DNA of 64,000 bases, from NCBI GenBank assembly GCA_030536855.1, contig JAUNPK010000008.1, positions 1 to 64,000 on the forward strand, written 5' to 3'. Numbering within the stretch: the first letter of the stretch is position 1; every line of letters begins with the position of its first letter. The position numbers and the translations under genes are program-made. Shown in pieces: positions 4,352-64,000 of this stretch. This DNA comes from Eubacteriales bacterium. Lineage in GTDB: Bacteria; Bacillota; Clostridia; Lachnospirales; Lachnospiraceae. The notes beneath the pieces are model-generated. The model saw nothing but the letters and a program-made list of their open reading frames with translations, had not been told where the DNA came from and made no database searches.

Positions 4352-4411
4352 TTTTCCTATTGTAATGTCCCTTAAAAACAATTGAAAAAATAAATATTAT
4401 TTTAGACACTA

Positions 4412-4471
4412 AAAAGACAGAGTATTGCAGTTTTAAGGATTACCTCATTTTCTACAAATACTCTGTCTTTT
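4412..4471. terminator. Shared terminator between convergent rsfS and lexA
   Basis: A perfect 15-bp inverted repeat (4412-4426 with 4457-4471) around a 30-base loop. A run of A starts the left arm and a run of T ends the right arm, so it could stop transcription from both sides: rsfS on the plus strand and lexA on the minus strand. Confidence 0.82.
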
Positions 4472-4496
4472 CTATCCCATATTACAATGTATTAAA

Positions 4497-5117
4497 TTAT
4501 ATTATATTAAGACGTAATAAACCAATTACTTTTCCAAGTATTTCACAATCACTAACAATAATTGGATCCATGAAATCGTTCTCGGGCTGAAGTCTTATAT
4601 GTCCATTCTCCTTATAAAACCTCTTAACAGTAGCAGAATCATCAACAAGTGCCACAATAACTTCACCATTTCTAGCTGTATTCTGCTTCTTTACCATAAT
4701 ATAGTCCCCATCATAAATTCCCATATTAACCATACTGTCACCTTTTACAGACAACATAAAGGTATCTTCATTAGGCATAAATTCTGATGGCATAGGGAAG
4801 TAGTTAGTGATATTCTCAACAGCCAACAATGGTTGTCCCGCAGCAACCTGTCCAAGTAACGGAACATTGACAACCTCTCGTCTTGTAAGATTAAAATTAT
4901 CATCAATTATTTCTATGGTTCTTGGTTTTGTTGGATCTCTTCTTATATATCCATTCTTTTCCAACGTTTCCAAATGTGCATGAACAGAAGATGTAGACTT
5001 TAAATTAACTGCGCTGCATATATCCCTTACTGAAGGTGGATATCCCTTATTAATAATCTGTGACTTAATATATTCAAGAATTTCCGACTGTTTTTTTGTA
5101 ATTCTGCCGTACGCCAT
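4497..5117 (-). CDS. lexA: SOS repressor LexA
   Basis: Repressor of the DNA-damage response; it cleaves itself when stimulated by RecA filaments. It has an N-terminal winged helix (residues 1-70) with YPPSVRDI, and a C-terminal S24 peptidase domain. The scissile Ala93-Gly94 bond, catalytic Ser128 (in VKGDSMV) and Lys165 (in SATVKRF) are all present. The length of 206 residues is normal. A GGAGG ribosome binding site precedes the ATG. Its promoter region carries LexA-box-like sites, so autoregulation is expected. It is divergent from a YneA-like division inhibitor, the same arrangement as in Bacillus. Confidence 0.97.
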   Translation of the reverse strand: MAYGRITKKQSEILEYIKSQIINKGYPPSVRDICSAVNLKSTSSVHAHLETLEKNGYIRRDPTKPRTIEIIDDNFNLTRREVVNVPLLGQVAAGQPLLAVENITNYFPMPSEFMPNEDTFMLSVKGDSMVNMGIYDGDYIMVKKQNTARNGEVIVALVDDSATVKRFYKENGHIRLQPENDFMDPIIVSDCEILGKVIGLLRLNII

Positions 5118-5180
5118 AAAAAACCTCCGTATTATTTATAATTATAATAATTATCACGACTAATAATTATCTCTTATACA

Positions 5181-5209
5181 ATGATAACACACATATTTTT
5201 AATAAGCAA
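5181..5209 (-). promoter_or_regulatory. Predicted lexA promoter
   Basis: Reading leftward: a -35 of TTGCTT (5204-5209), a 17-base spacer, and a -10 of TATCAT (5181-5186), placed about 65 bases before the lexA start. A LexA-box-like 14-mer (5207-5220) overlaps the -35, which fits autorepression. Confidence 0.6.
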
Positions 5210-5303
5210 ACATATTTTCCGAAAAATTGTTCTGAAAATATGTTCGATTTTTATTGACAAACATTTGTTTGGAATGTAATATAATTGCAAGAACATTTGT
5301 TTG
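5207..5303. promoter_or_regulatory. Cluster of LexA-box-like operators between lexA and yneA-like gene
   Basis: Five 14-mers resemble the Gram-positive SOS box CGAAC-N4-GTTCG: 5207-5220 (CAAACATATTTTCC), 5220-5233 (CGAAAAATTGTTCT), 5233-5246 (TGAAAATATGTTCG), 5258-5271 (CAAACATTTGTTTG) and 5290-5303 (AGAACATTTGTTTG). The first three begin exactly 13 bp apart, each sharing one base with its neighbour. The fourth overlaps the -35 of the rightward promoter and the fifth lies just after its -10. The last two are the strongest by symmetry. The sites explain coordinated repression of both divergent genes; individual occupancy is inference. Confidence 0.75.
5254..5282 (+). promoter_or_regulatory. 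Predicted SOS-controlled promoter of the yneA-like gene
   Basis: A consensus -35 of TTGACA (5254-5259), a 17-base spacer, and a -10 of TAATAT (5277-5282). A LexA-box-like site overlaps the -35 and spacer and a second lies 8 bases after the -10, so LexA would block this promoter directly. Confidence 0.78.
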
Positions 5304-5382
5304 TTTTATTCAAAGTTACTATAAATGTTTATAGCAATACATTTTCACAAATGCTAACGGTTGATTAAAAGGGAGGATTATT

Positions 5383-5697
5383 ATGAAGGGTAAGAATTCA
5401 ATTAATTTGGTTAAAGTTTTAATTATAACATTCTCAATTGCAGCAATAATTTCCTTGGGAAGTATTATTGTTAAAGCATCTGATAACAGTCATAAGAAAG
5501 AAGAATACAGATATTATACCAGTATAACTATTGAAGATAGCGATACACTCTGGTCTATAGAAGATAAATATAATAACGGAAATGAAGATAAGAATACCTA
5601 CATCAATAATATAATTCAACTTAACAATATGAACTCTGATGTTATTAAAAAAGGCTCCAATATCCTTGTTTATTATTATTCAGATCAGATAAAGTAA
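5383..5697 (+). CDS. YneA-like SOS cell-division inhibitor (membrane-anchored LysM protein)
   Basis: A 104-residue protein with one N-terminal membrane segment (about residues 8-28) and an extracellular LysM-like domain (about residues 46-98, including SDTLWSIEDKY and the ending KKGSNILVYY). This is the architecture and size of Bacillus YneA, which halts septation during the SOS response. It is divergent from lexA and its promoter is covered by LexA-box-like sites, as for yneA. A GGAGG ribosome binding site precedes the ATG. YneA-type proteins diverge strongly in sequence, so the assignment rests on architecture, position and operators together. Confidence 0.8.
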   Translation: MKGKNSINLVKVLIITFSIAAIISLGSIIVKASDNSHKKEEYRYYTSITIEDSDTLWSIEDKYNNGNEDKNTYINNIIQLNNMNSDVIKKGSNILVYYYSDQIK

Positions 5698-5829
5698 TAC
5701 TTTTTTTAATTTGCTAGGTGTTAGAAATGGTGAGAAAGATTGAACTTATTTGTCTCATCTGATATATTTTTAATAAAGAAATACAAGAATATTATCAGAG
5801 ATAAATATTTTCGAGATTGGAGTACACCT

Positions 5830-6978
5830 ATGTTATATAATGAAATTTTAGATCTTAATCCTGAATTAATAAATATTCTTAAGAATAATAATATTTCAGA
5901 AATGACTCCTATACAGGCTCAGACCTTTAAACATATCAACAATAACAGAGATCTCATTGCCTGTTCCGGAACCGGTACTGGTAAGACATTTTCTTACCTT
6001 GTTCCTCTTATTAATAATCTTTCTGAGAATAGCAGTAATGTACAGATTTTAATACTTGTTCCAACTGGAGAATTAGCTGCTCAAGTTAATTCTCAGGCAG
6101 AACTTCTTTTATCATACAAAGATTCTAAATTCCACTCGATCTTTGTAACCGGAGATGGTAATTTAAACCGTCAGATTGAAAAGATTAAATCAAAGCCATC
6201 AGTTCTTGTAGGGACACCATCAAGAGTTTTACAATTAATTAAATCCAATAAATTAAAAGTTCATGAAGTAAAATCTCTTGTACTGGATGAGGCTGATAAA
6301 CTTATTAATACAACATATATAGAACAAGTTAGCTTAATTCGTAAATCTCTTATGAAATATACCCAGGTTTTATTGTTCTCTGCAAGTATAGATAAAAAAA
6401 CAAGAAAAGCGGCCAATTCTTTGACATTCAAAGCAATAGATATTGATTTGAATAATATGAATCAATCTAAAAGCCTTATTCCCACAAATATTAAACATTT
6501 ATATGTTGTTACTGACAGACGTGAACGCGTGGAGACATTAAGAAAGCTTATAAAAGCAACCGGAACAAACAAAGCAATTGTTTTCATTAACACTAAGTAT
6601 GATTTAGAAGAATCATACCAAAAGCTTGAATATCATAATTACAAAGTTGGACAATTATCAAGCAATCAGAATAATATTCAGAAGAAAACAACTCTTGATA
6701 GATTCAAAAATAATAATATACAGATTCTTTTAACAACAGATATTGCATCAAGAGGTTTGCAGCTTGATAATGTTGATACAGTAATTAATTTAAATCTTCC
6801 GGAGGAATCTAAAGATTATATTCACAGAGCAGGAAGATGTGGTCGTAATGGTAATAAAGGCGTGTGTATATCAATTATTACTGAAAACGAATTAAATAAA
6901 ATAAAGAAATACCAAAAAGATCTTCATATCAATGTAATACAAAAGAAACTATATCAAGGCAAACTTGTGGCAAAATAA
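5830..6978 (+). CDS. Divergent DEAD-box RNA helicase
   Basis: ATP-dependent RNA helicase core with two RecA-like domains. Motifs in order: Q motif (MTPIQAQ), motif I (SGTGTGKT), Ia (PTGELAAQ), Ib (TPSRV), II (DEAD), III (SAS), V (TTDIASRGLQ) and VI (HRAGRCGR). Several depart from consensus: PTRELA to PTGELA, TPGR to TPSR, SAT to SAS, HRIGRTGR to HRAGRCGR. The frame is open from a TTG at 5740, but a GGAG ribosome binding site sits 7 bases before the ATG at 5830, and that start places the Q motif at the usual distance. There is no long C-terminal tail. It lies downstream of the yneA-like gene and may share its SOS promoter; no terminator is visible between them. Confidence 0.9.
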   Translation: MLYNEILDLNPELINILKNNNISEMTPIQAQTFKHINNNRDLIACSGTGTGKTFSYLVPLINNLSENSSNVQILILVPTGELAAQVNSQAELLLSYKDSKFHSIFVTGDGNLNRQIEKIKSKPSVLVGTPSRVLQLIKSNKLKVHEVKSLVLDEADKLINTTYIEQVSLIRKSLMKYTQVLLFSASIDKKTRKAANSLTFKAIDIDLNNMNQSKSLIPTNIKHLYVVTDRRERVETLRKLIKATGTNKAIVFINTKYDLEESYQKLEYHNYKVGQLSSNQNNIQKKTTLDRFKNNNIQILLTTDIASRGLQLDNVDTVINLNLPEESKDYIHRAGRCGRNGNKGVCISIITENELNKIKKYQKDLHINVIQKKLYQGKLVAK

Positions 6979-7005
6979 CAATTGCCACTGTAAATGCAAA
7001 TCATC

Positions 7006-7033
7006 ACTTCGTTAAACTCGGCTTTAGCGAAAT
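7006..7033. other. dif-like inverted repeat upstream of the recombinase gene
   Basis: Two 11-bp arms separated by 6 bp: ACTTCGTTAAA (7006-7016), CTCGGC, TTTAGCGAAAT (7023-7033). The right arm, read on the other strand, is ATTTCGCTAAA and matches the left arm at 9 of 11 positions. The 11-6-11 layout and the ACTTC...AA start resemble Xer recombination sites. In streptococci the dif site lies just upstream of xerS, as here. No T run follows, so a terminator is less likely. Functional assignment is inference. Confidence 0.4.
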
Positions 7034-7073
7034 TATATATGTAACTATCATTCATTAAGGAGGGTTACTACTA

Positions 7074-8135
7074 ATGGCCACCAATAAGAACACCTACACT
7101 GAACAACAAAATAAAAAATATGTAAGACAAATAAATGATATTTTATCTTATTTGCCTGATTTTTGTACAGAATATTTTAACAGTCTTGAGTTTACTAAAC
7201 AGCCACGTACAAGAGTTGCCTATGCACTGGATGTAAAATCTTTTTTTGAATATCTTTTAGATAAATTACCTCAATTTAAAAATTATACAATGAAGGATTT
7301 CACATTAAGAGATTTAGAAAAACTTAAAGGTCAGGATATATCTAATTACCTAAGATATATAAGAGTGTATGAACGTAACGGACAGGAAGTAACCAATTCA
7401 GAAGCCGCCATCAAGCGTAAACTGTGTTCTTTAAGACGTTTTTATGGCTACTACTACCGCTACGAATTTATATCTGCAGATCCAACACGTCAGGTTGAGA
7501 TGCCTAAGCTTCATGAGAAGGCAATAATTCGAATGGATCCAAATGAAGTATCTGAATTTCTTGATAATGTTGAATCCGGAAATAAATTAACTAAAAAACA
7601 ATTAGACAGCCATACAAAGCTTAAGAAAAGAGATTTAGCATTGTTAACATTAATGCTTGGTACCGGTATCCGTGTTTCCGAATGTGTAGGTTTAGATGTT
7701 ACAGATATAGATTTTGATAACGAACGTATAAGAGTTATTCGTAAAGGTGGTGCTGAAAGTTTTGTATACTTTGGTGATGAAGTACGTAAAGCACTATTGG
7801 ACTACCTTGAGGAGCGCAAATCTCTTAATCCTGAGCCCGGACATGAAAACGCATTATTTATATCTAATAAGAACAAAAGGCTCTGTGTGCGCTCTGTAGA
7901 GCTTCTGGTGAAAAAATATGCTCAGACCGTAACTACAGTAAAACATATTACTCCACATAAATTAAGAAGTACTTATGGTACTAACTTATACCAGGAAAGT
8001 AAAGATATATACCTTGTTGCTAATGTACTTGGTCATAAGGATGTCAACACTACCCGTAAACACTATGCAGAAATTGAGGAAGAAAACAAACGTGATGCCA
8101 GAAATATTGTAAAACTCAGATCTGAAAATATATAA
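7074..8135 (+). CDS. XerS-like tyrosine recombinase
   Basis: Site-specific tyrosine recombinase of 353 residues, close in length and layout to streptococcal XerS, the single-protein resolver of chromosome dimers. It has an N-terminal SAM-like core-binding domain (about residues 25-145) and a C-terminal catalytic domain. All catalytic residues are visible: Arg200 (TGIRVSE), Lys224 (RKGG), His295 and Arg298 (HKLR), His321 (LGHKD) and nucleophile Tyr331. An AAGGAGGGTT ribosome binding site precedes the ATG. No phage or transposon genes surround it, so a housekeeping Xer role is likelier than a mobile integrase. A dif-like inverted repeat lies 40 bases upstream. Confidence 0.88.
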   Translation: MATNKNTYTEQQNKKYVRQINDILSYLPDFCTEYFNSLEFTKQPRTRVAYALDVKSFFEYLLDKLPQFKNYTMKDFTLRDLEKLKGQDISNYLRYIRVYERNGQEVTNSEAAIKRKLCSLRRFYGYYYRYEFISADPTRQVEMPKLHEKAIIRMDPNEVSEFLDNVESGNKLTKKQLDSHTKLKKRDLALLTLMLGTGIRVSECVGLDVTDIDFDNERIRVIRKGGAESFVYFGDEVRKALLDYLEERKSLNPEPGHENALFISNKNKRLCVRSVELLVKKYAQTVTTVKHITPHKLRSTYGTNLYQESKDIYLVANVLGHKDVNTTRKHYAEIEEENKRDARNIVKLRSENI

Positions 8136-8140
8136 AAATC

Positions 8141-8200
8141 CTGGGATAAATATTGTATAAACCATTAAATTTTGTCTGATTTATACAATATTTATCCCAG
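8141..8200. terminator. Bidirectional terminator, perfect 21-bp inverted repeat
   Basis: 8141-8161 and 8180-8200 are exact reverse complements with an 18-base loop. The stem begins with CTGGGA and is otherwise AT-rich. It lies between the recombinase gene (plus) and the converging minus-strand unit whose last gene ends at 8215. It marks the switch from mostly plus-strand to entirely minus-strand genes. Confidence 0.85.
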
Positions 8201-8214
8201 TCTTTAAAAAAATT

Positions 8215-8928
8215 CTACTCTTCTATCTTGGTCTTATAATCATACTTAACGAATACAGGTATCTGAATATCTGTAGGTAGTTCAAAATCTGACGATATTT
8301 CAACAACTGTATTAACACCGCAATTGTTATATATCCATTTGGCATCTATCGGTGCCATATAAATAGAACCTGATGTTGAAGGATTGCTTAAGTTATTGTA
8401 AGCTATCACATTAAGATTTCCTACCTGCTTATAATAATATGGAGTTGAACAAATATATTCTCCATTGTCCAGTCTGCAATTATAATGGCCGTAATCATTT
8501 TCTGTTATTTTCTTCCACTCGTTCTTCTCCCCAATAAATGTTGTTCCTGTTTTTACTGAAGGATTAACTGATATATTAAATGCCTTTAACGCTTTTTTAT
8601 TGTTGTCATTATCAGTATATTCATATATTACTGCAACATTTTTTGAGACACTGATTCTGATATAATAAGATTGATTTTTGGCCACATAGGAACTTTCATC
8701 TTTCTTTGTATCTTCATCTGATGATGATTCACTTTCATCAATACTGTTCTGTTCAAGATTTTGATTTTCTTTATGCATACCTATCACGGTTTTAAGTGCA
8801 AAAAGTAAAACCAGTAACAGAACACCAAGTATAACAAGATAAAACTTGGAATTATTTCCCGTTAACCATTTTTTTATATCAGTCTTTTTCTTTCTTTTAT
8901 ATCCATGAATCTCCATATCTTTTTTCAT
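8215..8928 (-). CDS. Membrane-anchored L,D-transpeptidase-like protein, active site lost
   Basis: A 237-residue protein: basic cytoplasmic N-terminus, one membrane segment (residues 28-47), an acidic Ser-rich linker (60-80), then a domain that follows the YkuD L,D-transpeptidase pattern typical of Clostridia. Landmarks align in order: GTTF near 128, W138, YGHYN near 146, TPY near 162, YNNL at 177 and DAKWIYNNC at 195-203. The catalytic positions are changed. Where active enzymes have FHS this has ICS (159-161), and where they have SHGCIR it has TSGSIY (185-190). The nucleophilic Cys, both His and the Arg are therefore gone. It is probably a cell-wall-binding or regulatory pseudoenzyme. It is the last gene before the convergent terminator. 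Confidence 0.75.
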   Translation of the reverse strand: MKKDMEIHGYKRKKKTDIKKWLTGNNSKFYLVILGVLLLVLLFALKTVIGMHKENQNLEQNSIDESESSSDEDTKKDESSYVAKNQSYYIRISVSKNVAVIYEYTDNDNNKKALKAFNISVNPSVKTGTTFIGEKNEWKKITENDYGHYNCRLDNGEYICSTPYYYKQVGNLNVIAYNNLSNPSTSGSIYMAPIDAKWIYNNCGVNTVVEISSDFELPTDIQIPVFVKYDYKTKIEE

Positions 8929-8945
8929 CCATTAAATAGATAATT

Positions 8946-9575
8946 TTATTTTTGGTTCTTTTCCTTCAGCTCAATAAACTTCAATATCAGTTCAATTGCT
9001 CCATCAATTCCTACAAGACCACTGTCTATACAAAGATCATAGCTCTTTGCCTCGCCCCATTTCTTGCTTGAATAATAATTGTAGTAGCTGGCCCTTCTCT
9101 TATCTGTTTTCTGAATCAAGTCAGCAGCTTTCGAATCATTAAGTTCATATATTTTCTTAATTCTTGCGATTCTGTCTTCCATACTTGCCTTAATCCATAC
9201 ACTAATGGCAAATGGATTATCCTCTAAGGCATAATCAGCACATCTACCAACAATTACACAAGACTCTTTTGCTGCCAGTTTCTTAATAGTGTCAAACTGA
9301 GCCAAAAAAACTTTGTGATTAATTGGCATATCCACATAAGAATTAGTATATCCTAATGAATATGTATCCATAACCAGAGAATATAAGAAACTGTTTGTTG
9401 GCTTCTCATCTTGTGATGCAAAAAGTTCTTCGCAAAGTCCACTTTCTTTAGCTGCTAATTCCAACAATTCCTTATCATAGCATTTGATGCCAAGTCTTTC
9501 TGCTAGTTTCATACCAACTTCATGTCCACCGCTTCCAAATTCACGTCCTATTGTAATTACTGTTCTTTCATCCAT
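8946..9575 (-). CDS. Cytidylate kinase-like family protein
   Basis: P-loop kinase of the cytidylate kinase-like family common in Clostridia, distinct from the main Cmk. The N-terminus ITIGREFGSGGHEVG (about residues 7-21) holds a P-loop variant. A VIVGRCADYAL segment follows mid-protein, and an Arg-rich lid region around TDKRRASYYNYYS is visible. The length is 209 residues. An AGGAGG ribosome binding site precedes the ATG. The true substrate is not established for this family; a nucleoside monophosphate is inferred. It lies 17 bases before the L,D-transpeptidase-like gene, probably as an operon. Confidence 0.8.
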   Translation of the reverse strand: MDERTVITIGREFGSGGHEVGMKLAERLGIKCYDKELLELAAKESGLCEELFASQDEKPTNSFLYSLVMDTYSLGYTNSYVDMPINHKVFLAQFDTIKKLAAKESCVIVGRCADYALEDNPFAISVWIKASMEDRIARIKKIYELNDSKAADLIQKTDKRRASYYNYYSSKKWGEAKSYDLCIDSGLVGIDGAIELILKFIELKEKNQK

Positions 9576-9674
9576 AATGCTACCTCCTGGTTACAACCGT
9601 CCACAATTTTTTGATATCACCATTATACATTAAATTGTTTGATAACGCTATACATTTTATAATATATTCACACT

Positions 9675-10217
9675 TTAATCTTCAAAATGGTCAATGTGTA
9701 ACATCATTTCCATCAAAAATTCAGATATGTTGTCACCATACTTATTAGAAATAACGCTATATTGTCTTGGAGTAACGCATACCAGCCTTATATGACAATA
9801 CCCTCTGGCTCCAAACAGATAGTTCTTACCAGGATTACAGTTTTTCAATTTTGCAATCACATCTTCCGATGGCATATTTCTGGTTATAATAATAAATGAA
9901 ATATATGAATACATGTGGTTTTTACAGGGAAGTTTTTTATCATTTCTGACAAAATGTGGTTCAATCTTATTAACAGCAAAATCTACCAGGTCATCAAATT
10001 CCTCCATTCCCAGATTATCGCTGTTTATAAAAAATAAATGTTCAAAACATCTGGAATCCCATAATTTAGCATCCCCTGTTGTTTCAAATTTATTTTTATT
10101 TTTATAATTATAGGCATAGATAACAAATTTTCTCTCTTCGAACCAGTAATTATGATATATGTCAAATGTATCTGAAATACTGTTCAATATTATATCAATA
10201 AATTCTTTACGTCTCAT
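9675..10217 (-). CDS. Uncharacterised protein, about 180 residues
   Basis: I do not recognise this protein. It is a soluble alpha/beta sequence without signal peptide or membrane segment, rich in aromatic residues (YHNYWFEERKF near the N-terminus) and with a Cys-containing middle (KLPCKNHMYSYISF). The frame opens at a TTG (10223), but a GGGAGG site lies 6 bases before the ATG at 10217, which I take as the start. It follows rluD by about 70 bases in the same direction and precedes the cytidylate-kinase-like gene by about 100 bases. The neighbours do not suggest a function. Confidence 0.72.
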   Translation of the reverse strand: MRRKEFIDIILNSISDTFDIYHNYWFEERKFVIYAYNYKNKNKFETTGDAKLWDSRCFEHLFFINSDNLGMEEFDDLVDFAVNKIEPHFVRNDKKLPCKNHMYSYISFIIITRNMPSEDVIAKLKNCNPGKNYLFGARGYCHIRLVCVTPRQYSVISNKYGDNISEFLMEMMLHIDHFED

Positions 10218-10286
10218 ATCCAACCTCCCATAAAAATAAAAAGTGATCTAAACCATCCTTTTTCTTATGCAAAAACACCTGGTTTC

Positions 10287-11231
10287 TTATTTTCTCAATG
10301 TCTTTAAAACATTATTAAAATAATCTGGAAGTGGCGCACTATATTCCACATATTCTTTGCTTCCAGGATGTATAAAGCCCAAAACACCGGCATGGAGTGT
10401 CTGTCCCTGTAAATTAAACTGAGATTTTCCACTTCCGTACACGCTGTCTCCCAAAAGTGGATGGCCTATTGAAGACATATGAACCCTTATCTGATGAGTT
10501 CTTCCTGTTTCTAACTGGCACTCAATGAAACTAAATTTATCAAAGTTTTCTAAAACCTTATATCTTGTTACAGCTCTTCTTCCATTTTTATCAATGCACA
10601 TCTTTTTTCTGTCTGTTTTATTTCTTCCAATAGGTGCATCAACAATTCCCTCTTCATCCTTAAATCTGTTCATAACTATAGCATAATATTTTCTTGTAAT
10701 AGAATGAACACTCAGTTGTTCCGCAATAAAATTATGTGCAGAATCATTTTTACAGGCAACTATGACACCAGTGGTATCCATATCAATTCTATGGACAATT
10801 CCGGGTCTCATGACGCCGTTTATTCCTGACAGATTATCTTTACAGTGAAACATAAGTGCATTTACAAGAGTTCCGGTATAGTGTCCGGCTGCAGGATGAA
10901 CAACCATACCTTTTGGCTTATTCACTACTATTATATCCTCATCTTCATGTATAATATCCAAATGAATATCCTCAGGTTCAATATCAGGAACCACCAGTTC
11001 TGGAATTGTAACAGTTATCTTGTCCTCACAATTTACTTTATAATTAGATTTTGTTACAGTACCGTTAACTGTCACCAATCCATCATCAATAAGCTTCTGC
11101 ACTCTGGATCTTGAAATATCATTAATTTCATCAGATATATATTTATCAATTCTTGTTCCTTTATCCTCAATATCAACAACAAATTCCTGAAAATCTAAAT
11201 TATTGTCCAATTTTAGAATCTCCATTTTCAT
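10287..11231 (-). CDS. RluA/RluD-family 23S rRNA pseudouridine synthase
   Basis: Converts uridine to pseudouridine in rRNA; the closest functional class is RluD. An N-terminal S4 RNA-binding domain (about residues 20-80, RIDKYISDEI and SRSRVQKLIDDG) is followed by the catalytic domain with HRIDMDTTGV, the motif containing the catalytic Asp, and the GRTHQIRVH motif. The length is 314 residues. Its first 30 bases overlap the end of lspA, a very common pairing in Firmicutes. The exact target uridines cannot be read from the sequence. Confidence 0.93.
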   Translation of the reverse strand: MKMEILKLDNNLDFQEFVVDIEDKGTRIDKYISDEINDISRSRVQKLIDDGLVTVNGTVTKSNYKVNCEDKITVTIPELVVPDIEPEDIHLDIIHEDEDIIVVNKPKGMVVHPAAGHYTGTLVNALMFHCKDNLSGINGVMRPGIVHRIDMDTTGVIVACKNDSAHNFIAEQLSVHSITRKYYAIVMNRFKDEEGIVDAPIGRNKTDRKKMCIDKNGRRAVTRYKVLENFDKFSFIECQLETGRTHQIRVHMSSIGHPLLGDSVYGSGKSQFNLQGQTLHAGVLGFIHPGSKEYVEYSAPLPDYFNNVLKTLRK

Positions 11232-11793
11232 CTATAATATCCTTCTCAACACTTTCTTGAGCATCTTCAGTATCATTTATCTTCTTGCTGGAAAGGAATT
11301 TAAAATCCTCTTCATCATATACGAATAAGATAGATATTATCAGAAGAATAACTGAAACAGTTACATAGCAATCAGCCACATTAAACACCGGAAAGTCTAT
11401 GAGTTTAAAATATATAAAATCCCTGACATATCCAAATCTGATTCTATCTATAAAATTTCCTAAAGCACCGGATACAAGAAGCGTGCACATAAGGTAAACC
11501 GGATAGTACTTCTTTGTCATTGGCATTCTTATAATTATATACGTAATAAATGCAACAACAATCACAGTAAGGACTAAAAACAAATTAATTTTTCCGCTGA
11601 ACATTCCAAATGCGCTTCCGTCATTACGAAGATATGAAAATTCCAGAACTCCCTTTATAACAGGAATATCATCATTCTTATATAAAATATTTTCTGCTAT
11701 AATCTTAGTTATCTGATCCAATTCAGTAAGTATAGTAACAAGCACTAAATATAGCACCAATCCCACTGTTTTCCTTTTTTTTAAATCACTCAT
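11200..11793 (-). CDS. lspA: Lipoprotein signal peptidase (SPase II)
   Basis: Membrane aspartic protease that removes signal peptides from prolipoproteins. It has four hydrophobic segments. The conserved catalytic blocks GALGNFIDRIRFGYVRDFI and FNVADCYVT supply the two Asp residues. The frame extends to a TTG at 11811, but the ATG at 11793 (MSDLKKRK) gives a normal N-terminus. There is a charged C-terminal tail of about 45 residues (acidic, ending NGDSKIGQ), longer than in most homologues. It overlaps the pseudouridine synthase gene by about 30 bases. Confidence 0.95.
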   Translation of the reverse strand: MSDLKKRKTVGLVLYLVLVTILTELDQITKIIAENILYKNDDIPVIKGVLEFSYLRNDGSAFGMFSGKINLFLVLTVIVVAFITYIIIRMPMTKKYYPVYLMCTLLVSGALGNFIDRIRFGYVRDFIYFKLIDFPVFNVADCYVTVSVILLIISILFVYDEEDFKFLSSKKINDTEDAQESVEKDIIDENGDSKIGQ

Positions 11794-11873
11794 CTTAAAC
11801 TCTACTTTCAATTTCTTTAATTATGTAAAAATCTTTATCCAAACCATTCACATCAATTATGTAAATACTTTAA

Positions 11874-12962
11874 TCACTTTATAATATCTAAAAGAGCATC
11901 CTTCATCTCTTCATCAGTAACATTCATGTCAATATATGCATCTCCTACTGAATTTAAAAGTATGAACTTAATCTTTCCTGCATCCATTTTCTTGTCATTT
12001 TTTGATACCTTAACCACATCCTCAGATGTTATGCCTGTTACAGTTGTAGGGAATTCGTATAATTTAAGCATTTCAACAGCATCATTATACTCAGCCTCGG
12101 ATATAGCACCTCTCTTTTTACAGATACTAAGGGCTGCTATCATTCCCAAAGCAACACATTCTCCGTGATACAAAGTGAAATTCATAAGTTTTTCTATTGA
12201 ATGTCCTAATGTGTGACCAAAATTCAATAATGCTCTGTCACCCTTTTCCTTAGGATCCTTTTCAACAACTTCCCTCTTAATATTGCAACTTATATAAATC
12301 ATCTCTTCAATATATTCCGGCTCAAGTTTTTTAATATTATCTACATTGTCTCTAAGCCAGTTATAATAATTTGAGTCCTTTATAAGACCATGCTTGATAA
12401 TTTCTCCAAATCCGGAATTAAACAATCTTGTACTTAATGTTTTAAGAACAGAAATATTCATATACACAAGCTTAGGCTGATGAAAGGCTCCAACCATATT
12501 TTTATAAGCTCTGAAATCAACTCCGGTTTTACCACCAATACTTGAATCCACCTGGGCAAGTAAAGATGTTGGTACCTGTATAAAATCAATACCTCTAAGG
12601 TAAGTTGCAGCAGTAAATCCAGTAAGATCGCCTACGACTCCTCCTCCCAGCGCTACCAGCATATCCTTTCTGTCAAAATGTTCCTTTATAAGAAATTCGT
12701 ATACATCTTCAACAGTATCCAGATTCTTATTTTCCTCTCCTGCTTCAAATGTATAAACAAACACTTTATTACCTGTCTTTTTGAGTTCTTCCTCAACTAA
12801 AGATGCATATATAGGACCTACATTAGAGTCTGTAACAATGCATAATTTTCTTCCTGATATTCCAAGTTTTGAAAATGCATCTGCTAACAGGCTGAAGTCA
12901 TTTTCAATAACAATATCATAAATTGGTTTATTTTCATATTTCACATTAATACATTTTGACAT
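11874..12962 (-). CDS. aroB: 3-Dehydroquinate synthase
   Basis: Second enzyme of the shikimate pathway, converting DAHP to 3-dehydroquinate with NAD and a divalent metal. The 362-residue product shows the NAD-binding GGGVVGDLTGF block (near residue 105), the QVPTSLLAQVDSSIGGKTGV segment, and metal-ligand regions FGEIIKHG and FGHTLGHSIE. No other aro genes are beside it. It begins 60 bases after the sepF terminator and leads into lspA and the pseudouridine synthase gene. Confidence 0.97.
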   Translation of the reverse strand: MSKCINVKYENKPIYDIVIENDFSLLADAFSKLGISGRKLCIVTDSNVGPIYASLVEEELKKTGNKVFVYTFEAGEENKNLDTVEDVYEFLIKEHFDRKDMLVALGGGVVGDLTGFTAATYLRGIDFIQVPTSLLAQVDSSIGGKTGVDFRAYKNMVGAFHQPKLVYMNISVLKTLSTRLFNSGFGEIIKHGLIKDSNYYNWLRDNVDNIKKLEPEYIEEMIYISCNIKREVVEKDPKEKGDRALLNFGHTLGHSIEKLMNFTLYHGECVALGMIAALSICKKRGAISEAEYNDAVEMLKLYEFPTTVTGITSEDVVKVSKNDKKMDAGKIKFILLNSVGDAYIDMNVTDEEMKDALLDIIK

Positions 12963-13021
12963 AATTATTATCTCCTATCACATTAATTGTATATCATCAA
13001 AATTTTTTGTTTTTTAATAAC

Positions 13022-13052
13022 AAAAAGCCACTCAGGAATGTCCTTGAGTGGC
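13022..13052 (-). terminator. Terminator of the shape/division cluster ending with sepF
   Basis: An 8-bp GC-rich stem (13027-13034 with 13045-13052). On the minus strand it is followed by a T run (complement of 13022-13026). It lies 30 bases after the sepF stop. Confidence 0.85.
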
Positions 13053-13081
13053 AAAATATTAAATACAACAACTAAAAAAAA

Positions 13082-13636
13082 CTAAAAGCTTGTATCACTT
13101 TTAAAAGAGGTCAAATCAATGCCACCTGCAACTATCTCAGGAATATCTCCGGATATGTCAACATTAGGTGGTGTAACAAGAAATATGTAATTAGTAATCT
13201 TCTGTAAGTTACCACTTATTGCATAACATGAACCTGCAGAATAATCTATAATTCTCTGTGCAACCTCCACATGAATACCTTCAAGATTCAGCACAACAGC
13301 CTTTCCGCTCAACAGTGTGTCTGTAATTTCACTGGCATCTTCAATTGACTTAGGTCTGATAACAACGACCTCTAATCCTCTTCCTGTCTGCTGTTTCATT
13401 GGTACCACCTTACTCTTGGTTGAAAATTTAGGTTTATCATTGAGCGTAAATGAAGTTGATGCATCCTCTTCATAGTCATCTGACTTCTTAGAACCGGAAA
13501 ATAACTTCTTTCTCATTGAAGGCTTTTCGTCTTCATAATCATCAAATTCTTCATCATCCTCATCATAATCGTAATCGTCATCAAGGTCATCACCCTGAAC
13601 TTTAAAAAATCCTAAGATTGAATCTGTAAATCCCAT
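13082..13636 (-). CDS. sepF: Cell division protein SepF
   Basis: FtsZ-binding protein that aligns and anchors the Z ring in Gram-positive bacteria. It has a short N-terminal amphipathic membrane-binding segment (MGFTDSILGFFK), a very acidic linker (about residues 17-50, mostly D and E with Y), and a C-terminal SepF domain (about residues 85-175) with VVIRPKSIEDA and LEGIHVEVAQRIIDYSAG. The length is 184 residues. It follows yggS, as in the ylm cluster of Bacillus. A terminator follows 30 bases later. Confidence 0.95.
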   Translation of the reverse strand: MGFTDSILGFFKVQGDDLDDDYDYDEDDEEFDDYEDEKPSMRKKLFSGSKKSDDYEEDASTSFTLNDKPKFSTKSKVVPMKQQTGRGLEVVVIRPKSIEDASEITDTLLSGKAVVLNLEGIHVEVAQRIIDYSAGSCYAISGNLQKITNYIFLVTPPNVDISGDIPEIVAGGIDLTSFKSDTSF

Positions 13637-13684
13637 TATAATTCTCCTAATTTTAATATTATGAACTAACTCATAATAATTATT

Positions 13685-14383
13685 TTACTGTCTGTTAGAA
13701 TAATCTCTTGCTCCAAAAATTGCTGTTCCTACTCTTATATGAGTAGCACCCTCCTCAACGGCAACACAATAATCATTAGTCATTCCCATTGACAGTACAT
13801 CCATATTGATATTATCAATGTTTTTCCGGTTAATGTCAACACATAATTGCTTTAATTGTCTGAAATATGTGCGATTTTTCTCTGGATTTAATACGTAAGG
13901 GGCGCTGGTCATTAATCCTCTAACACGAATATTCTTTAATTTAGAAATCTGTTTTACAAAATCCTCAACTTCTTCTAATTTAAATCCAAACTTATTCTCT
14001 TCTTCAGCCACATTAACTTCCACAAGAATATCCTGAACAATATCCTTTTTCTCGGCCTCAGTGTTTATAGCTTCTGCCAGTCTTACAGAATCAACCGAAT
14101 GAATCATACATGCTCTTCCAACTACATATTTCACTTTATTTCTCTGTAAATGCCCAATCATGTGCCAATTAATATCTTTAGGAAGAGAATCCACCTTATC
14201 TACCATTTCCTGTACATAATTTTCTCCAAACTCCCTAATATTGCAATTATAAACTTCCATCAGCATATCATTTGGTTTTGTTTTACTTACTGCAATGAGA
14301 CACACCTCATTAATATCTCTTCCACTTTTTTCACATGATTTTTTTATATTATTTTCAACTTCTAAAAGATTATCTTTTAACAT
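13685..14383 (-). CDS. yggS: YggS-family pyridoxal phosphate homeostasis protein
   Basis: PLP-binding TIM-barrel protein (YlmE in Bacillus) that buffers vitamin B6 and amino-acid pools; it has no proven enzymatic activity. The PLP lysine lies in LIAVSKTKP near residue 32. WHMIGHLQRNKVKY and LSMGMTNDY are family landmarks. The frame opens at a GTG (14395), but an AAAGGTG site is 9 bases before the ATG at 14383, which I prefer. It sits directly before sepF, as in many Gram-positive division clusters. Confidence 0.94.
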   Translation of the reverse strand: MLKDNLLEVENNIKKSCEKSGRDINEVCLIAVSKTKPNDMLMEVYNCNIREFGENYVQEMVDKVDSLPKDINWHMIGHLQRNKVKYVVGRACMIHSVDSVRLAEAINTEAEKKDIVQDILVEVNVAEEENKFGFKLEEVEDFVKQISKLKNIRVRGLMTSAPYVLNPEKNRTYFRQLKQLCVDINRKNIDNINMDVLSMGMTNDYCVAVEEGATHIRVGTAIFGARDYSNRQ

Positions 14384-14399
14384 AAAATCCAACACCTTT

Positions 14400-15788
14400 C
14401 TAGTATATCATTTCATTAGGCGAAAAATTAGCTGCATCAAGCACTATTCTGTCATAAACAGAAATACCATGTGATACATTTTGCTTAATTATGTAATACT
14501 CATTATTTTCATCTATAATCTCAACCACATTAAATACAGTATATCCCGTATTGACACAATAAACGCCCTTAAGATTTTTAGTTGACCCTATTACATAACG
14601 GGAACCGGCATCAGTCTTAATTATACTTGTACCTTGAGTAAAATCATCTTTACTGACATATATTTCATCCTGGGTAGTTTTATATATGTCCACTTCCTTA
14701 AATGATGTGATTAATTTATTATTTGAATCATAACTTTCAACTATAACACCAATATCATTGCTATTGCCACCTGTAGTAAGATACTCTTTTGGAATAACAT
14801 AAAATTCATTCTCAGTTATAGCCGACACCGGAATTTTCATTCCTGTTTTTCCGGAAGAAACAATCTCAATATCTAAAAATCTGTCAGTAACATATCTAAT
14901 CATATACTTATTCAAAGTAAGTTTACCATAGTAATTTCCGTCCTTATTTATTATGGAAAATCCACAGGAAGTTGTAATACTATCTTTTTTAAATTTGATT
15001 GTTATTGATGTTTTAGCTGATAATCCATAGTCGTCAATATCATCTTTGGTAAGCTTTATAAGCATGTACCAACTTTCATCTGTTACAAGTTTATAAGCAG
15101 GATTATTATTAACAATAATGTCACCTGAATTCAGATTGGTACGGTTATAATTACTTTTGTCAAAATCTGAATTCTGAATATTTTCTTCATTAATTCCCTC
15201 GTAACCATCAATGGAATATACAACAATACCATTTCCTTTTGAACCAATTGTTCTGAATAAATTTTGACTACCTGTACTTTCCACAATAGAATCCAGATTT
15301 GACATAATATTATCATTAATAGATTGAAGTACAGTAGTATTTAAATCCGATTTCAAATCATATAATTCAAAAAAATTACTTCCATCATAATCAGACTTAT
15401 AATTATTCAGTGCTATTTTTATTTCGGATAAATTCTCCGACGACAGGGAATTTTCTCCACCAATAGTGTAATTTTTCAAAATTTCTGATACACGACCTGT
15501 CTCATCAACAGTATATACCGTATCTCCAGCTTTAACTCTTGTCCCTTCTCTCTGATAGTAATTAATATTACCAGCATATTCAGAATTATATACGTCTTCA
15601 CTTCTCACCGCAATTGCAGTAAATGTTGCATTATTGGTAAGCGATCCAATGTTAACCTCGTATGTCTGAACCTTTGATTTGAGTGAATACATCACTACAA
15701 AACATATTATATAAGCAAGGACAAGTGCAAATATAATTACGGCAGCTTTAGGTTTTCTTTTGTATCTAACAACCTTATTGTCCGACAT
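14400..15788 (-). CDS. HlyD-family membrane protein (adaptor-like)
   Basis: A protein of about 460 residues with a basic cytoplasmic N-terminus, one membrane segment (about residues 15-37), and a long extracellular part. A biotinyl-lipoyl-like half-motif (YYQREGTRVKAGDTVYTVDETGRV) and a later beta-barrel domain give it the look of an HlyD or membrane-fusion adaptor. No ABC transporter is encoded nearby. The start at 15788 (MSDNKVV) is favoured because GGGAG sits 9 bases upstream, while the upstream ATG at 15812 has no site. It lies between mgsA and yggS in the division cluster, so an envelope role is likelier than toxin export; this is inference. Confidence 0.78.
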   Translation of the reverse strand: MSDNKVVRYKRKPKAAVIIFALVLAYIICFVVMYSLKSKVQTYEVNIGSLTNNATFTAIAVRSEDVYNSEYAGNINYYQREGTRVKAGDTVYTVDETGRVSEILKNYTIGGENSLSSENLSEIKIALNNYKSDYDGSNFFELYDLKSDLNTTVLQSINDNIMSNLDSIVESTGSQNLFRTIGSKGNGIVVYSIDGYEGINEENIQNSDFDKSNYNRTNLNSGDIIVNNNPAYKLVTDESWYMLIKLTKDDIDDYGLSAKTSITIKFKKDSITTSCGFSIINKDGNYYGKLTLNKYMIRYVTDRFLDIEIVSSGKTGMKIPVSAITENEFYVIPKEYLTTGGNSNDIGVIVESYDSNNKLITSFKEVDIYKTTQDEIYVSKDDFTQGTSIIKTDAGSRYVIGSTKNLKGVYCVNTGYTVFNVVEIIDENNEYYIIKQNVSHGISVYDRIVLDAANFSPNEMIY

Positions 15789-15875
15789 TATCTCTTTCTC
15801 CCAAAATTCCATTTAAAAATAAATCCAATTAAAAATATAACACAAGCAGAAATAATTCCACTTGTGTCACTTATA

Positions 15876-61398: not shown

Positions 61399-61456
61399 TT
61401 CATTAATTGGTAAAATTATTTTTTATTAATTTTTATTCTTCATTAATTGGTAAAAA
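61399..61456. repeat. Imperfect tandem duplication at the 3' end of the 391-residue gene
   Basis: TTCATTAATTGGTAAAA occurs at about 61399-61416 and again at 61439-61456, a 40-base period. The second copy encodes the last residues of the 391-residue protein (QLMKNKN), while the first lies after the stop. The period is not a multiple of three, so the duplication shifts frame and probably fixed the present C-terminus. Confidence 0.6.
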
Positions 61457-62601
61457 ATTTGCAAATTTTCAAGTGCTAGTCTTGATTGCTCTGTTGCACT
61501 TGTACCTGTAATTGTATCGCCGGTTAAGAGAATCTCCTGACTTTTTGAAAGTGCATCCTTAGCCACCTCATTAGCTTGCTTTGCCTTAGCTAATACTGCC
61601 TGGTCATCTGTCTGCATATCATATGTCCAGCTATTTTCTTCAATCCACTTTGAATCATCCACGCTTACTTCTTCTGAAACAAATCCACTAGTTGCCGCAT
61701 GTAAAGCTGCATTTGAAGCTGCTAATGCTTTCTGTCCTGATGGAGCTCCACTAGCTGCCATATTAGCAGCCTTTTCCTGCAATTCCTTTAACTTTTCAAG
61801 ATTTTCCTTAATATCATCAATGTACTTATCAATATCCTCTATAAGCTTTTCCCATTCTTCATCCGACATATCACGCCAGTCTTTTTCCTCTAAATCCTCA
61901 GCAGAAAGCTTACTTTTTTCTATAACAGTATCCTTTAGCATCTGTATTACTTCTGATGCTGTCATAGACTTACCTGTGTGTTGATTTTCTAAAGTTAATG
62001 TTGATTTAGCCAATAAATCATTCCAATTTGTTTTCTTGCTTATGGCCTCTTCATATGATGCATACTCCATTTTCTTACCGAAACCTGATGAAAATGTTTT
62101 TAATGCGTGCCAGCTTCCCCATTTATCATCTACTCCTGTGCCATTAGCATCCGCATACTGACAAAATGCAAACATTTCCACTGCAGTAGCATTATTGGTA
62201 TCAACCTCTGATAGGTTAACATCAATAGTTTCATTCTTGTTATCGCCTAAGCTAATCTTCACTCTCACAATAACGTCATCAGTATCTTTACTGATAATCT
62301 GTGTAGCACTCATTCCATATCCCATATCACCAACCAACAAGAATCCCACACCCAAACTTTTCATCTGAGGTTCATTGGTTTCTCTAATCTCATTAGTGTG
62401 AGCAGAATCCACCTGCCTGTAATACAATTCTTTTGACGATACAGTTTCTTTCTTAGAATAATTACTTTCATAACTATTTATAGAATTACTATCATCATTT
62501 TTTCCATAGCAGTATTCACTAAAACTTTCAGTAGAGCTGCTTGTAGTCTGTTTGTAGTACTTATACCGGATTCCAGTATTGATATGGTTATTTACCTCCA
62601 T
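61426..62601 (-). CDS. Unrecognised charged protein, second of a tandem pair under a SigD-type promoter
   Basis: I do not recognise this 391-residue protein. No signal peptide or membrane segment. The N-terminal 80 residues are rich in Ser, Tyr, Asn and Lys (low complexity). A folded region follows (about 80-200) with KSLGVGFLLVGDMGYGMSA, ATAVEMFAFCQYADANGTG and KWGSWHALKTF. Next come a charged helical segment with likely coiled coil (about 235-290, DEEWEKLIEDIDKYI) and an Ala-rich helical end. The EMFAFCQYADANG block reminds me of a multi-copy family in Lachnospiraceae, which I cannot verify. AAGGAG precedes the ATG. Confidence 0.75.
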   Translation of the reverse strand: MEVNNHINTGIRYKYYKQTTSSSTESFSEYCYGKNDDSNSINSYESNYSKKETVSSKELYYRQVDSAHTNEIRETNEPQMKSLGVGFLLVGDMGYGMSATQIISKDTDDVIVRVKISLGDNKNETIDVNLSEVDTNNATAVEMFAFCQYADANGTGVDDKWGSWHALKTFSSGFGKKMEYASYEEAISKKTNWNDLLAKSTLTLENQHTGKSMTASEVIQMLKDTVIEKSKLSAEDLEEKDWRDMSDEEWEKLIEDIDKYIDDIKENLEKLKELQEKAANMAASGAPSGQKALAASNAALHAATSGFVSEEVSVDDSKWIEENSWTYDMQTDDQAVLAKAKQANEVAKDALSKSQEILLTGDTITGTSATEQSRLALENLQIFYQLMKNKN

Positions 62602-62642
62602 ATTTCTCCTTTCTGTGACCTATCTGTCATTCAAGGCCGCCT

Positions 62643-62664
62643 AGCTCTCCCGAAGGTCCGAGCT
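62643..62664 (-). other. UUCG-capped hairpin in the leader of the 391-residue gene
   Basis: On the minus strand AGCTC pairs with GAGCT, enclosing GGA-CC-UUCG-GG-A, a tetraloop hairpin. A second pair of segments, TGTCATT (62675-62681) and AATGACA (62625-62631), can close an outer stem around it. That outer stem uses bases of the terminator-like stem at 62676-62717, so the two structures exclude each other. Confidence 0.55.
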
Positions 62665-62717
62665 GATAAAATAAAATGACACCTTACCTCAATCATTCCA
62701 TTGAAATAAGATGCCAT
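62665..62717 (-). terminator. Terminator or attenuator between the two tandem genes
   Basis: An 18-bp stem (62676-62693 with 62700-62717), fully paired if G-U wobbles are allowed, with a 6-base loop, followed on the minus strand by TTTTATTTTATC. It would end transcripts of the upstream 326-residue gene. It also lies just after the predicted start of the second promoter, so it is inside the leader of the 391-residue gene and may work as an attenuator. Confidence 0.75.
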
Positions 62718-62730
62718 CCATGTATTATAT

Positions 62731-62757
62731 ATATCGACAAATTTGTTTTTTACTTAA
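62731..62757 (-). promoter_or_regulatory. SigD (sigma-28)-type promoter of the 391-residue gene
   Basis: -10 GTCGATAT (62731-62738) and -35 TTAA (62754-62757) with a 15-base spacer on the minus strand. The sigma-28 consensus is TAAA-N15-GCCGATAT, so the -10 differs at one base while the -35 is imperfect. It overlaps the last bases of the upstream gene. Confidence 0.55.
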
Positions 62758-62758
62758 C

Positions 62759-63739
62759 CTAGAAGTTTAAATCAATCTCAATTCCCTTGATATCCTCGTT
62801 AATCATATGATTATCATTCATAAGTTTTGCTATACTCTTCTGAGCTTCCGCCATATGATCAACACTGCTTGTCTTAGTTGTTGTATCATATTTTAGCTGT
62901 TCAACCTCCATTTGAGCCCCTATAAGCTTTTCTCCATCTTCTTTTCTTTCTTTATTATTTTCTGTGCGTTCAGAAAGTTTTTCTTGCTCTTCTTTAAGCT
63001 TCTCAGCCTTTTCCTTTTCTTCCTCAGATACTTCGTCCAGATGTTCCTTAGCTTCATCCACAAGCATTCCGACTATATCTTTTGTAGCTGCATCAAGTAT
63101 CTGATCCGCAGCATCCTGAGCCTTTTGCATATCCTGTGACTTGATCTGTTCACTCTTTGCCATAGATATAGAAGCTGTCATAGCTATAAGCTTATTCTCC
63201 CCCTTTTCAATTTCTATATCAAGGGCATCCTTCGCGCCATTAAGTGCCAAAGCTTTCTTCTGAAAGTCAGTTAATGGTTTATTTTGAAATTCTTTTAATC
63301 TCTCAATCTCTTCTTCTGTGAATTCATCATAAGAAGCACCAGTCTTATTATCCTGATACTTTTCTAAAAGCTTGTAATCTTTATATTCCTGAGAGTCTTC
63401 ACTAACGCCATATTCCTGGCGCCACATTTCCTTTTCTTTTTCAATATTACCTTTTTTATTTTTAAGTTCTGCAACCTCTTGTGCCTTAGATGTTTTTTCA
63501 TCTTCCATTTCCTGAATACCTTTTTCCATCTTCTCATCACATCCCCACGCGTCTGTGATAAACTTCATAGCTTGTTTTCTGGCACTCATTCTTTTTTCAT
63601 CTATAGCACTCATACCAAGATTAAGATTTCTGGCATCTATAGATATTGCACTCTTATTACATTTTCCAGCCTTTTCAACATTTGTGTTAGTAAAAGGCAA
63701 TGTATTCATATCATTATTGGTATTCATATTAACTAACAT
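62759..63739 (-). CDS. Unrecognised coiled-coil protein, first of a tandem pair under a SigD-type promoter
   Basis: I do not recognise this 326-residue protein. No signal peptide or membrane segment. The N-terminal 50 residues are Asn- and Thr-rich. A long helical, highly charged part follows, with likely coiled coils at about 85-115 (KTSKAQEVAELKNKKGNIEK) and 225-275 (Glu/Lys-rich, EEEKEKAEKLKEEQEKL). The end is IEIDLNF. It contains one conserved-looking AWGCDEKME segment near residue 68. AGGAGGTG lies 7 bases before the ATG. Its promoter fits the flagellar sigma factor, so a role in motility, as regulator, chaperone or secreted structural protein, is possible but unproven. Confidence 0.78.
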   Translation of the reverse strand: MLVNMNTNNDMNTLPFTNTNVEKAGKCNKSAISIDARNLNLGMSAIDEKRMSARKQAMKFITDAWGCDEKMEKGIQEMEDEKTSKAQEVAELKNKKGNIEKEKEMWRQEYGVSEDSQEYKDYKLLEKYQDNKTGASYDEFTEEEIERLKEFQNKPLTDFQKKALALNGAKDALDIEIEKGENKLIAMTASISMAKSEQIKSQDMQKAQDAADQILDAATKDIVGMLVDEAKEHLDEVSEEEKEKAEKLKEEQEKLSERTENNKERKEDGEKLIGAQMEVEQLKYDTTTKTSSVDHMAEAQKSIAKLMNDNHMINEDIKGIEIDLNF

Positions 63740-63805
63740 CTACCAACACCTCCTAAGCCCCAGCAGGCTCCATCTTGCTTTTTAGCTATGATGAATACTT
63801 GGTAT

Positions 63806-63825
63806 GATTGAAATCCTTTTCAATC
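63806..63825 (-). other. Hairpin in the 5' leader of the 326-residue gene
   Basis: A perfect 8-bp stem GATTGAAA/TTTCAATC (63806-63813 with 63818-63825) and a 4-base loop, about 30 bases after the predicted transcription start. A second small stem (AGCC/GGCT near 63756-63769) lies next to the ribosome binding site. Confidence 0.55.
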
Positions 63826-63854
63826 AAAAATATTTGCAAGTTACCTTATCAATT

Positions 63855-63881
63855 TTATCGACAGATTTTTATAAATATTTA
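63855..63881 (-). promoter_or_regulatory. SigD (sigma-28)-type promoter of the 326-residue gene
   Basis: -35 TAAA (63878-63881), a spacer of exactly 15 bases, and -10 GTCGATAA (63855-63862) on the minus strand. The flagellar sigma-28 consensus is TAAA-N15-GCCGATAA, so only one base differs. It lies about 115 bases before the ATG, after a terminator for the preceding gene. Confidence 0.75.
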
Positions 63882-63906
63882 TAGTTTTCAAATTTATAGT
63901 TTTTAT

Positions 63907-63946
63907 AAAAAAAATGAGGTACATATCAAATTCTGTATGTACCCCA
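63907..63946 (-). terminator. Terminator of a gene entering from the right edge
   Basis: An 8-bp stem (63918-63925 with 63936-63943), extended beyond a mismatch by two further pairs, followed on the minus strand by eight T. It shows that a transcription unit coming from beyond 64000 ends here. Confidence 0.8.
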
Positions 63947-63951
63947 TATTT

Positions 63952-64000
63952 CTAATTAATAGTAATTCTTTTTACAATACCCATATATCCTTCTACCAAC
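63952..64000 (-). CDS. Possible 3' end of a gene continuing beyond the window
   Basis: On the minus strand, one frame from the window edge reads LVEGYMGIVKRITIN and stops (TAG, complement of 63952-63954), a few bases before the terminator. A second frame (ending KKNYY) is also open, so the frame choice is uncertain. The product cannot be identified from so few residues. Confidence 0.3.
   Translation of the reverse strand, partial: LVEGYMGIVKRITIN

Follow-up and report, generated by a model that had tools for sequence, protein, structure and literature searches.

An overlooked coiled-coil gene of motile Lachnospiraceae with predicted flagellin-like control by sigma-28 and CsrA

The window examined here, the first 64,000 bases of an 82,143-base contig (C10) in a 2.4 Mb, 54-contig Lachnospiraceae genome, carries on its minus strand a gene for a coiled-coil protein of 326 amino acids (aa) at 62759-63739. 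Upstream of it lie a candidate promoter for the flagellar sigma factor sigma-28 (SigD/FliA) at 63855-63881 and, within a predicted transcript leader of about 110 bases, a stem-loop at 63805-63826. The gene is defined by its open reading frame (ORF), an alignment of homologues (A1) and an AF2 structural model. Since a homologue occurs in 22 of the 98 nearest-relative genomes, this one counted, the ORF is real. Homologues named at 14 loci come from Lachnospira sp., Eubacterium sp., 'Lactobacillus rogosae' ATCC 27753, Roseburia inulinivorans and others, and identity among homologues is about 27 to 47%. These names suggest a Lachnospira-like gut commensal as the host. A sequence-only reading of this DNA had described the gene as lacking a recognisable family and the window as lacking flagellar genes, and both descriptions hold, the second for the ORFs scanned. 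Pfam finds no flagellar gene among the 53 scanned of the 62 window ORFs of at least 90 aa. For the 326-aa protein, Pfam-A yields no family, the DUF6033 and DUF6240 models included, and NCBIfam returns only two coiled-coil matches far below their cut-offs (SMC, 15.1 of 567 bits; Rad50, 12.4 of 1000).

In the AF2 model (mean pLDDT 77.8), a Thr/Asn-rich N-terminus of low confidence (residues 1-34), probably disordered, leads into a long helical hairpin that spans residues 43-284 and consists of helix 43-109, an insert, and helices 158-200 and 203-284. The positions conserved in alignment A1 are A53, K200, M204 and a C-terminal D.KG...D motif (D316, K318, G319 and D323), this conserved tail being modelled with low confidence. 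A relative in the Protein Data Bank (PDB) was sought by comparing a profile with PDB sequences and rejected, as the best match reached E 0.013 and none E 0.01 or lower. Attempts to identify the fold of the coiled coil gave generic helical matches only, with no Foldseek match at E 0.001 or lower.

On the minus strand, 63855-63881 reads TAAA, a 15-base spacer (TATTTATAAAAATCT) and then GTCGATAA. The exact sequence bears out the TAAA-N15-GTCGATAA site noted earlier, including its single departure from GCCGATAW, a T instead of a C in position 2 of the -10 box. The site fits the patterns published for Butyrivibrio, given as TAAA-N16/17-MCGATAa (PMC3720852), and for SigD of C. difficile, given as TAAA, 15-18 bases and CG (PMC3865298). 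As a bare string it is mildly unusual and, alone, undecisive. TAAA-N15-GYCGATAW occurs once in the window against 0.06 expected by shuffling (six of 100 shuffles reach one) and, with one mismatch, four times against 1.95 expected (10 of 100 shuffles reach four); TAAA-N14..16-GTCGATAA has a single occurrence in the whole genome. Genome-wide counting of sigma-28 strings was dropped as evidence because loose patterns do not exceed reversed controls (187 vs 226 and 27 vs 38). With such counts unenriched and the string itself only mildly unusual, the promoter claim must rest on context.

That context was read at 33 sites (27 from one genome-wide scan and six further exact ones from another), 24 of which fall inside ORFs and nine between them. 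For eight of the nine intergenic sites, an ORF on the same strand starts no more than 125 bases away. Six of these eight stand before fliC (C20:117731), an ORF whose N-terminus resembles FlgK (C20:125467), a DUF6240 ORF (C1:56113), the 326-aa gene, an ORF of no known kind on contig C40 and a 394-aa ORF on C20. The other two (C29:24219 and C4:34055) precede ORFs whose N-termini are of membrane type and for which no link to the flagellum was seen. Only a few exact sites of the genome are both intergenic and correctly placed, and those of fliC, the FlgK-like ORF and the DUF6240 ORF that precedes a flagellin gene are among them.

The promoter recurs before homologues of the gene. Up to 300 upstream bases were scored against TAAA-N15/16-G[CT]CGATA[AT] (maximum 12), a published-type consensus with nothing trained. 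The 48 upstreams include that of the window gene and one from another family of the order (L050). The family search, with 86 genomes at E 0.001, supplied loci for the best 30 of them; loci repeating a gene known from another search, homologues cut by contig ends and homologues with in-frame stops (among them G021, G022 and G057) were left out. A score of 11 or 12 was reached by 21 of the 48 and a score of at least 10 by 32. At these two thresholds, the controls gave 1.0% and 14.0% of 960 dinucleotide shuffles, 1/48 and 11/48 reversed sequences, and 3/48 and 11/48 coding sequences. Neighbouring ORFs from 20 loci, chosen by length and a ribosome-binding-site rule and not curated as genes, reach 11 in four of 175 cases, and three of these four are unknown ORFs of the same type, one being the adjacent 391-aa gene of the window. 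Flagellin genes of relatives, the positive control, reach 11 in 12 of 20. Four upstreams that are closely related keep the -10 core GCCGATA unchanged and differ in the preceding spacer, and the promoter is retained even where the protein and spacer of a homologue have diverged. Several homologues scoring below 11 (in G013, G037, G170, G282, G436 and G448) sit right behind a same-strand DUF6033 gene. Upstream of those DUF6033 genes, the score is 10 in G448 and G013 and 8-9 in G037, G170 and G436 (G282 lay outside the scoring), so that an operon explanation of the sub-11 homologues is only partly borne out.

Flagellar regulators are present in the genome. It encodes a FliA sigma factor at C16:14824-15486 (262 bits, above the curated cut-off of 189.6), gives four Flagellin_N matches, and has Pfam matches to FlgM, FlaG, CsrA and FliW, the last two encoded at C20:121567-121791 and C20:121793-122251. 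The sequence-only reading had named a genome without sigD or flagellar genes as grounds for abandoning its proposal; FliA, FlgM and flagellins were all found. Across 397 genomes of the family, drawn from 334 genera, the coiled-coil family is present in 75 at E 1e-10 or lower, and 74 of these carry flagellin, compared with 213 of the 397 overall (Fisher 4e-22). The sole exception, G209, is 72% complete. At E 1e-3, flagellin accompanies the family in 81 of 86 genomes, the other four exceptions being weak matches (E 7e-5 to 1e-3) with an internal stop. Among the 98 nearest relatives, all 22 genomes with the protein have flagellin, which is found in 73 overall. The Fisher test treats genomes as independent; since most genera give one genome, shared ancestry should inflate the association only partly. 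Promoter conservation, the presence of FliA and the near-restriction to flagellin-bearing genomes support the earlier placement of this protein in the likely motility regulon, and transcription control by FliA is strongly supported by computation.

The leader adds a second possible level of control. Its stem-loop at 63805-63826 (minus strand), TGATTGAAA[AGGA]TTTCAATCA, forms a perfect 9-bp stem in both minimum free energy and centroid folds and is a predicted CsrA-binding hairpin. The Shine-Dalgarno sequence AGGAGG at 63749-63754 (minus strand) is also a GGA site and, on the model of hag and glgC (PMC7652899), may be a second CsrA contact. On glgC, CsrA is described as binding a GGA that sits in the loop of a hairpin immediately ahead of the Shine-Dalgarno sequence (PMC7652899). 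In C. jejuni, CsrA-bound RNAs are reported to carry AAGGA in hairpin loops, with FliW antagonising CsrA (PMC4894983). Leader bases -120 to -16 were scanned for uninterrupted stems, with G-U counted as half and loops of 3-7 bases, and all 64 loop triplets were compared; GGA is the commonest in both the coiled-coil family and DUF6033. GGA hairpins with a stem score of at least 7 occur in 10/48 coiled-coil leaders, 7/18 DUF6033 leaders and 0/176 neighbours. At a score of at least 6, the counts are 12/48 (three of the twelve, L038, L039 and L040, being close kin), 12/18 and 5/176, the neighbour set being what was left after 25 family-like ORFs were removed. Shuffling the 66 family leaders gave a mean of 1.65 and a maximum of four such hairpins, compared with 24 seen. 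The stems differ in sequence between leaders, for example ATCCCGAA/TTTGGGAT and CGGGATAA/TTATCCCG, and since they have no fixed common sequence, it is structure rather than sequence that appears to be kept.

Flagellin itself shows the same feature. A GGA hairpin scoring at least 6 is present in 11 of 20 flagellin leaders of relatives (genes picked by hand, one with an upstream of only 199 bases), and fliC1 of this genome has a GTGGCA[AGGA]TGCCAC hairpin at -34. Across the two families and the flagellins, 26 of the 35 hairpins scoring at least 6 place their loop at a distance of 34-50 bases from the start codon, immediately ahead of the Shine-Dalgarno sequence. Aligning the window leader with distant leaders was uninformative, and Rfam gave nothing at gathering score within 62500-64000. 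Control by CsrA at the predicted leader hairpin is moderately supported by computation, with CsrA binding as its presumed basis, and the leader hairpins predict a CsrA regulon broader than flagellin.

The N-terminus of the protein bears on its destination. Once 11 near-duplicates or uncertain starts had been dropped, 37 homologues were left of the 48. In these, Ser, Thr, Asn and Gln make up 41% of residues 2-20, compared with 23% in 207 background proteins, 40% in ten flagellar export substrates and 44% in DUF6033. Position 3 is Ile or Val in 27/37 homologues versus 43/207 background proteins. The homologue N-termini are low in charge, resembling the flagellar export substrates of this genome and unlike the background. 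Cysteine amounts to 0.2% in 15 homologues versus a comparison value of 1.5%, a near-absence that suits an exported protein but a coiled coil as well. Given its export-like N-terminus, the 326-aa protein is most likely to leave by flagellar type III export; both this export and a job outside the cell are inferred.

On balance, it is fairly probable that the 326-aa gene is a late, sigma-28-transcribed and CsrA-gated gene of the flagellar regulon, its product most likely being a non-structural cargo of flagellar type III export. It would then be a late (class 3) gene with two gates, like flagellin. Export of FlgM would free FliA to transcribe from 63855-63881. CsrA bound to the GGA hairpin at 63805-63826 would keep translation waiting until FliW holds CsrA, and since FliW lifts this block, the 326-aa protein would be made when flagellin is made. 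The helical-hairpin rod with its disordered N-terminus would be exported alongside the filament by the flagellar type III apparatus. The two controls look like flagellin's own. This suggests that motile gut bacteria, when they build flagella, also produce a set of proteins that has escaped notice and may be exported.

Several observations weigh against this account. Of the 48 homologue upstreams, 16 have no site scoring at least 10, and the counts lack full independence because a few homologues are close kin (e.g. L038/L040, L058/L059 and L060/L061). Folded as a whole, the window leader surpasses shuffles by only z = -1.40. A GGA hairpin scoring at least 6 is absent from 36/48 homologue leaders, and the window hairpin, at -78, lies farther from the start codon than most of its relatives' hairpins. 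Within this genome, no comparable hairpin precedes fliC2 (4 pairs), fliC3, flgL, flgK or flgM, nor the DUF6240, C20 and C40 ORFs, some of these starts being approximate. Most CsrA ligands from systematic evolution of ligands by exponential enrichment (SELEX) are described as having four or fewer contiguous pairs (PMC7652899), so the 9 bp of the window stem exceed the usual length. Composition argues only weakly for export, and DUF6033 does not share the Ile or Val at position 3 (3/18). Lastly, the coiled-coil family is missing from 139 of the 213 flagellin-bearing genomes at E 1e-10; it is therefore not needed for motility and is an accessory to it.

The same double control could also act on a protein that remains cytoplasmic and serves the flagellar machine as chaperone, assembly factor or scaffold, in the manner of a FliJ/YscO-like hairpin, which we regard as rather unlikely. 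FliJ, YscO and other helical hairpins do resemble the 326-aa protein in its predicted long antiparallel helices; they differ in that no PDB sequence matches at E 0.01 or lower and the structural matches are to generic coiled coils, the FliJ/YscO-like ones being tied with many unrelated coiled coils and none passing the Foldseek threshold given above. A cytoplasmic role also sits poorly with an N-terminus that is modelled with low confidence and export-like in composition, and a part in the flagellar machine with a family present in only 74/213 flagellin-bearing genomes. If the site is real and used, the protein might instead serve chemotaxis or surface sensing, and not export or the filament. 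One homologue, in G331 (L184), directly follows CheA-, CheW- and receptor-like ORFs named by eye, the window contains GGDEF/EAL genes, and some 7 kb upstream there is a PilZ gene. However, in 13 neighbourhoods from other genomes, also read by eye, the other homologues stand beside housekeeping-looking genes or unknown ORFs of the same type, and a sensory role seems improbable to us.

It is very hard to credit that the promoter string arose by chance and that the flagellum link reflects nothing more than shared ancestry. The loose site counts, being no higher than reversed controls, would suit such a view, but the homologue promoters set against neighbour controls, the association over 397 genomes and 334 genera, and the GGA hairpins all speak against chance. 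Returning to export as the preferred fate, a wider version of it can be held only tentatively, at somewhat less than even credence: motile Lachnospiraceae may use flagellar export as a general secretion route for a large, fast-evolving, non-flagellar set of proteins under sigma-28 and CsrA/FliW, released into the gut. The set would comprise the helical rod, the 391-aa family, DUF6033 and others, sometimes in multi-gene clusters.

The nearest known arrangement is that of the C. jejuni Feds and CiaI. The Campylobacter Fed/Cia group is described as sigma-28-dependent or flagellum-exported non-flagellar proteins (PMC5223770), and C. jejuni CsrA, antagonised by FliW, is reported to bind mainly flagellar mRNAs (PMC4894983). 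The likeness drawn here is one of arrangement, with secretion a presumed property. Unlike the Campylobacter Feds, the present families belong to another phylum and spread over many genera of one mostly-gut family; they would be a Gram-positive counterpart of the Fed/Cia group, its families so far unnamed. For hag of B. subtilis, CsrA is described as binding two leader sites, one over the Shine-Dalgarno sequence, with relief by FliW (PMC7652899), and the hag promoter as SigD-dependent (PMC3865298). The 326-aa gene is like hag in its predicted SigD and CsrA/FliW-type control; unlike hag, its product is not flagellin and its control is read from sequence. Several unknown families appear to travel with flagella and to share flagellin's controls. 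The flagellins of motile Lachnospiraceae, common gut commensals, have been studied for immune effects (PMC3720852). If these proteins are exported, the flagellum of these Gram-positive commensals would double as a secretion device, as it does in Campylobacter, and they would be candidates for contact with the host or competitors. Within the one library searched, no paper names DUF6033, DUF6240 or DUF5610, and among the papers listed from it none deals with the coiled-coil family.

The 391-aa gene at 61426-62601 (minus strand) encodes a second flagellum-linked family. At E 0.001, weak matches included, it is found in 49 of the 397 genomes, and flagellin in 49/49. Its AF2 model (mean pLDDT 55) consists of about 76 N-terminal residues of low confidence, a small beta/alpha domain and a helical tail; no Pfam match exceeds the cut-off, and this low-confidence model gives no fold match at E 0.001. 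The sequence-only reading had overlooked a weaker sigma-28-like promoter of this gene, TTAA-N15-GTCGATAT, at 62731-62757 (minus strand). In the family, 8/19 upstreams score at least 11, and in L066 and L067 the site lies just beyond the scored 300 bases. Between the two genes, at 62674-62719 (minus strand), is a 20-bp stem with the loop GGAATG, after which the minus strand becomes T-rich for a run. It may be the terminator of the 326-aa gene, a leader hairpin and gate of the 391-aa gene, or both.

DUF6033 (PF19498) is accompanied by flagellin in 135 of 136 genomes. Its upstreams, taken from 19 of 20 loci in those genomes (one had no ORF), score at least 11 in 8/19. The family adjoins the coiled-coil family on the same strand in at least nine genomes and lies 1.2 kb off in a tenth. 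There are, then, at least three flagellum-linked families of no known function in motile Lachnospiraceae: the coiled-coil family, the 391-aa family and DUF6033. The DUF6240 ORF before the flagellin gene and two further ORFs look alike. The promoter and flagellum pattern is common to the 391-aa gene, DUF6033 and several other ORFs, and so extends beyond the single gene of the sequence-only reading. The DUF6033 gene of this genome (L190, G000:C46:14805-15431) has TAAA-N15-GCCGATAC and a 9-bp leader hairpin with a CGGA loop, and an 85-aa ORF just past its end matches a C-terminal part missing from the window's 391-aa protein.

Other ORFs of this kind were seen in passing. The DUF6240 (PF19753) ORF (L078 8922-12068, G000:C1:52922-56068) lies directly upstream of a flagellin gene, with its sigma-28 site at C1:56113, and its C-terminus recalls, by eye, FliK-type hook-length domains. 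The exact sigma-28-like site of L132 (G000:C20:87799) is 71 bases before the 394-aa ORF, about 30 kb from the flagellin cluster. Near their starts, two ORFs with sigma-28-like sites, L009 (G000:C40:10707) and L082 6964-8103, have SNVNM, and the latter adjoins a homologue of the window gene. On the window's own contig but outside the window, some 6-7 kb upstream of the 326-aa gene, are genes for a lytic transglycosylase (SLT) and a PilZ-domain protein (L079 9479-11118, G000:C10:69479-71118). In L182 (G251:C45:4001-23000), about ten ORFs whose N-termini look export-like are clustered at positions 779-15823, among them the coiled-coil family, a DUF6033 match, the 391-aa family and family-less ORFs, mixed with regulator-like ORFs; two of the cluster's ORFs have 12-of-12 sigma-28 sites. 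A 207-aa ORF of the present genome (L080 9175-9798, G000:C20:169175-169798), preceded by TAAG-N15-GTCGATAT, is by eye akin to an ORF of that cluster.
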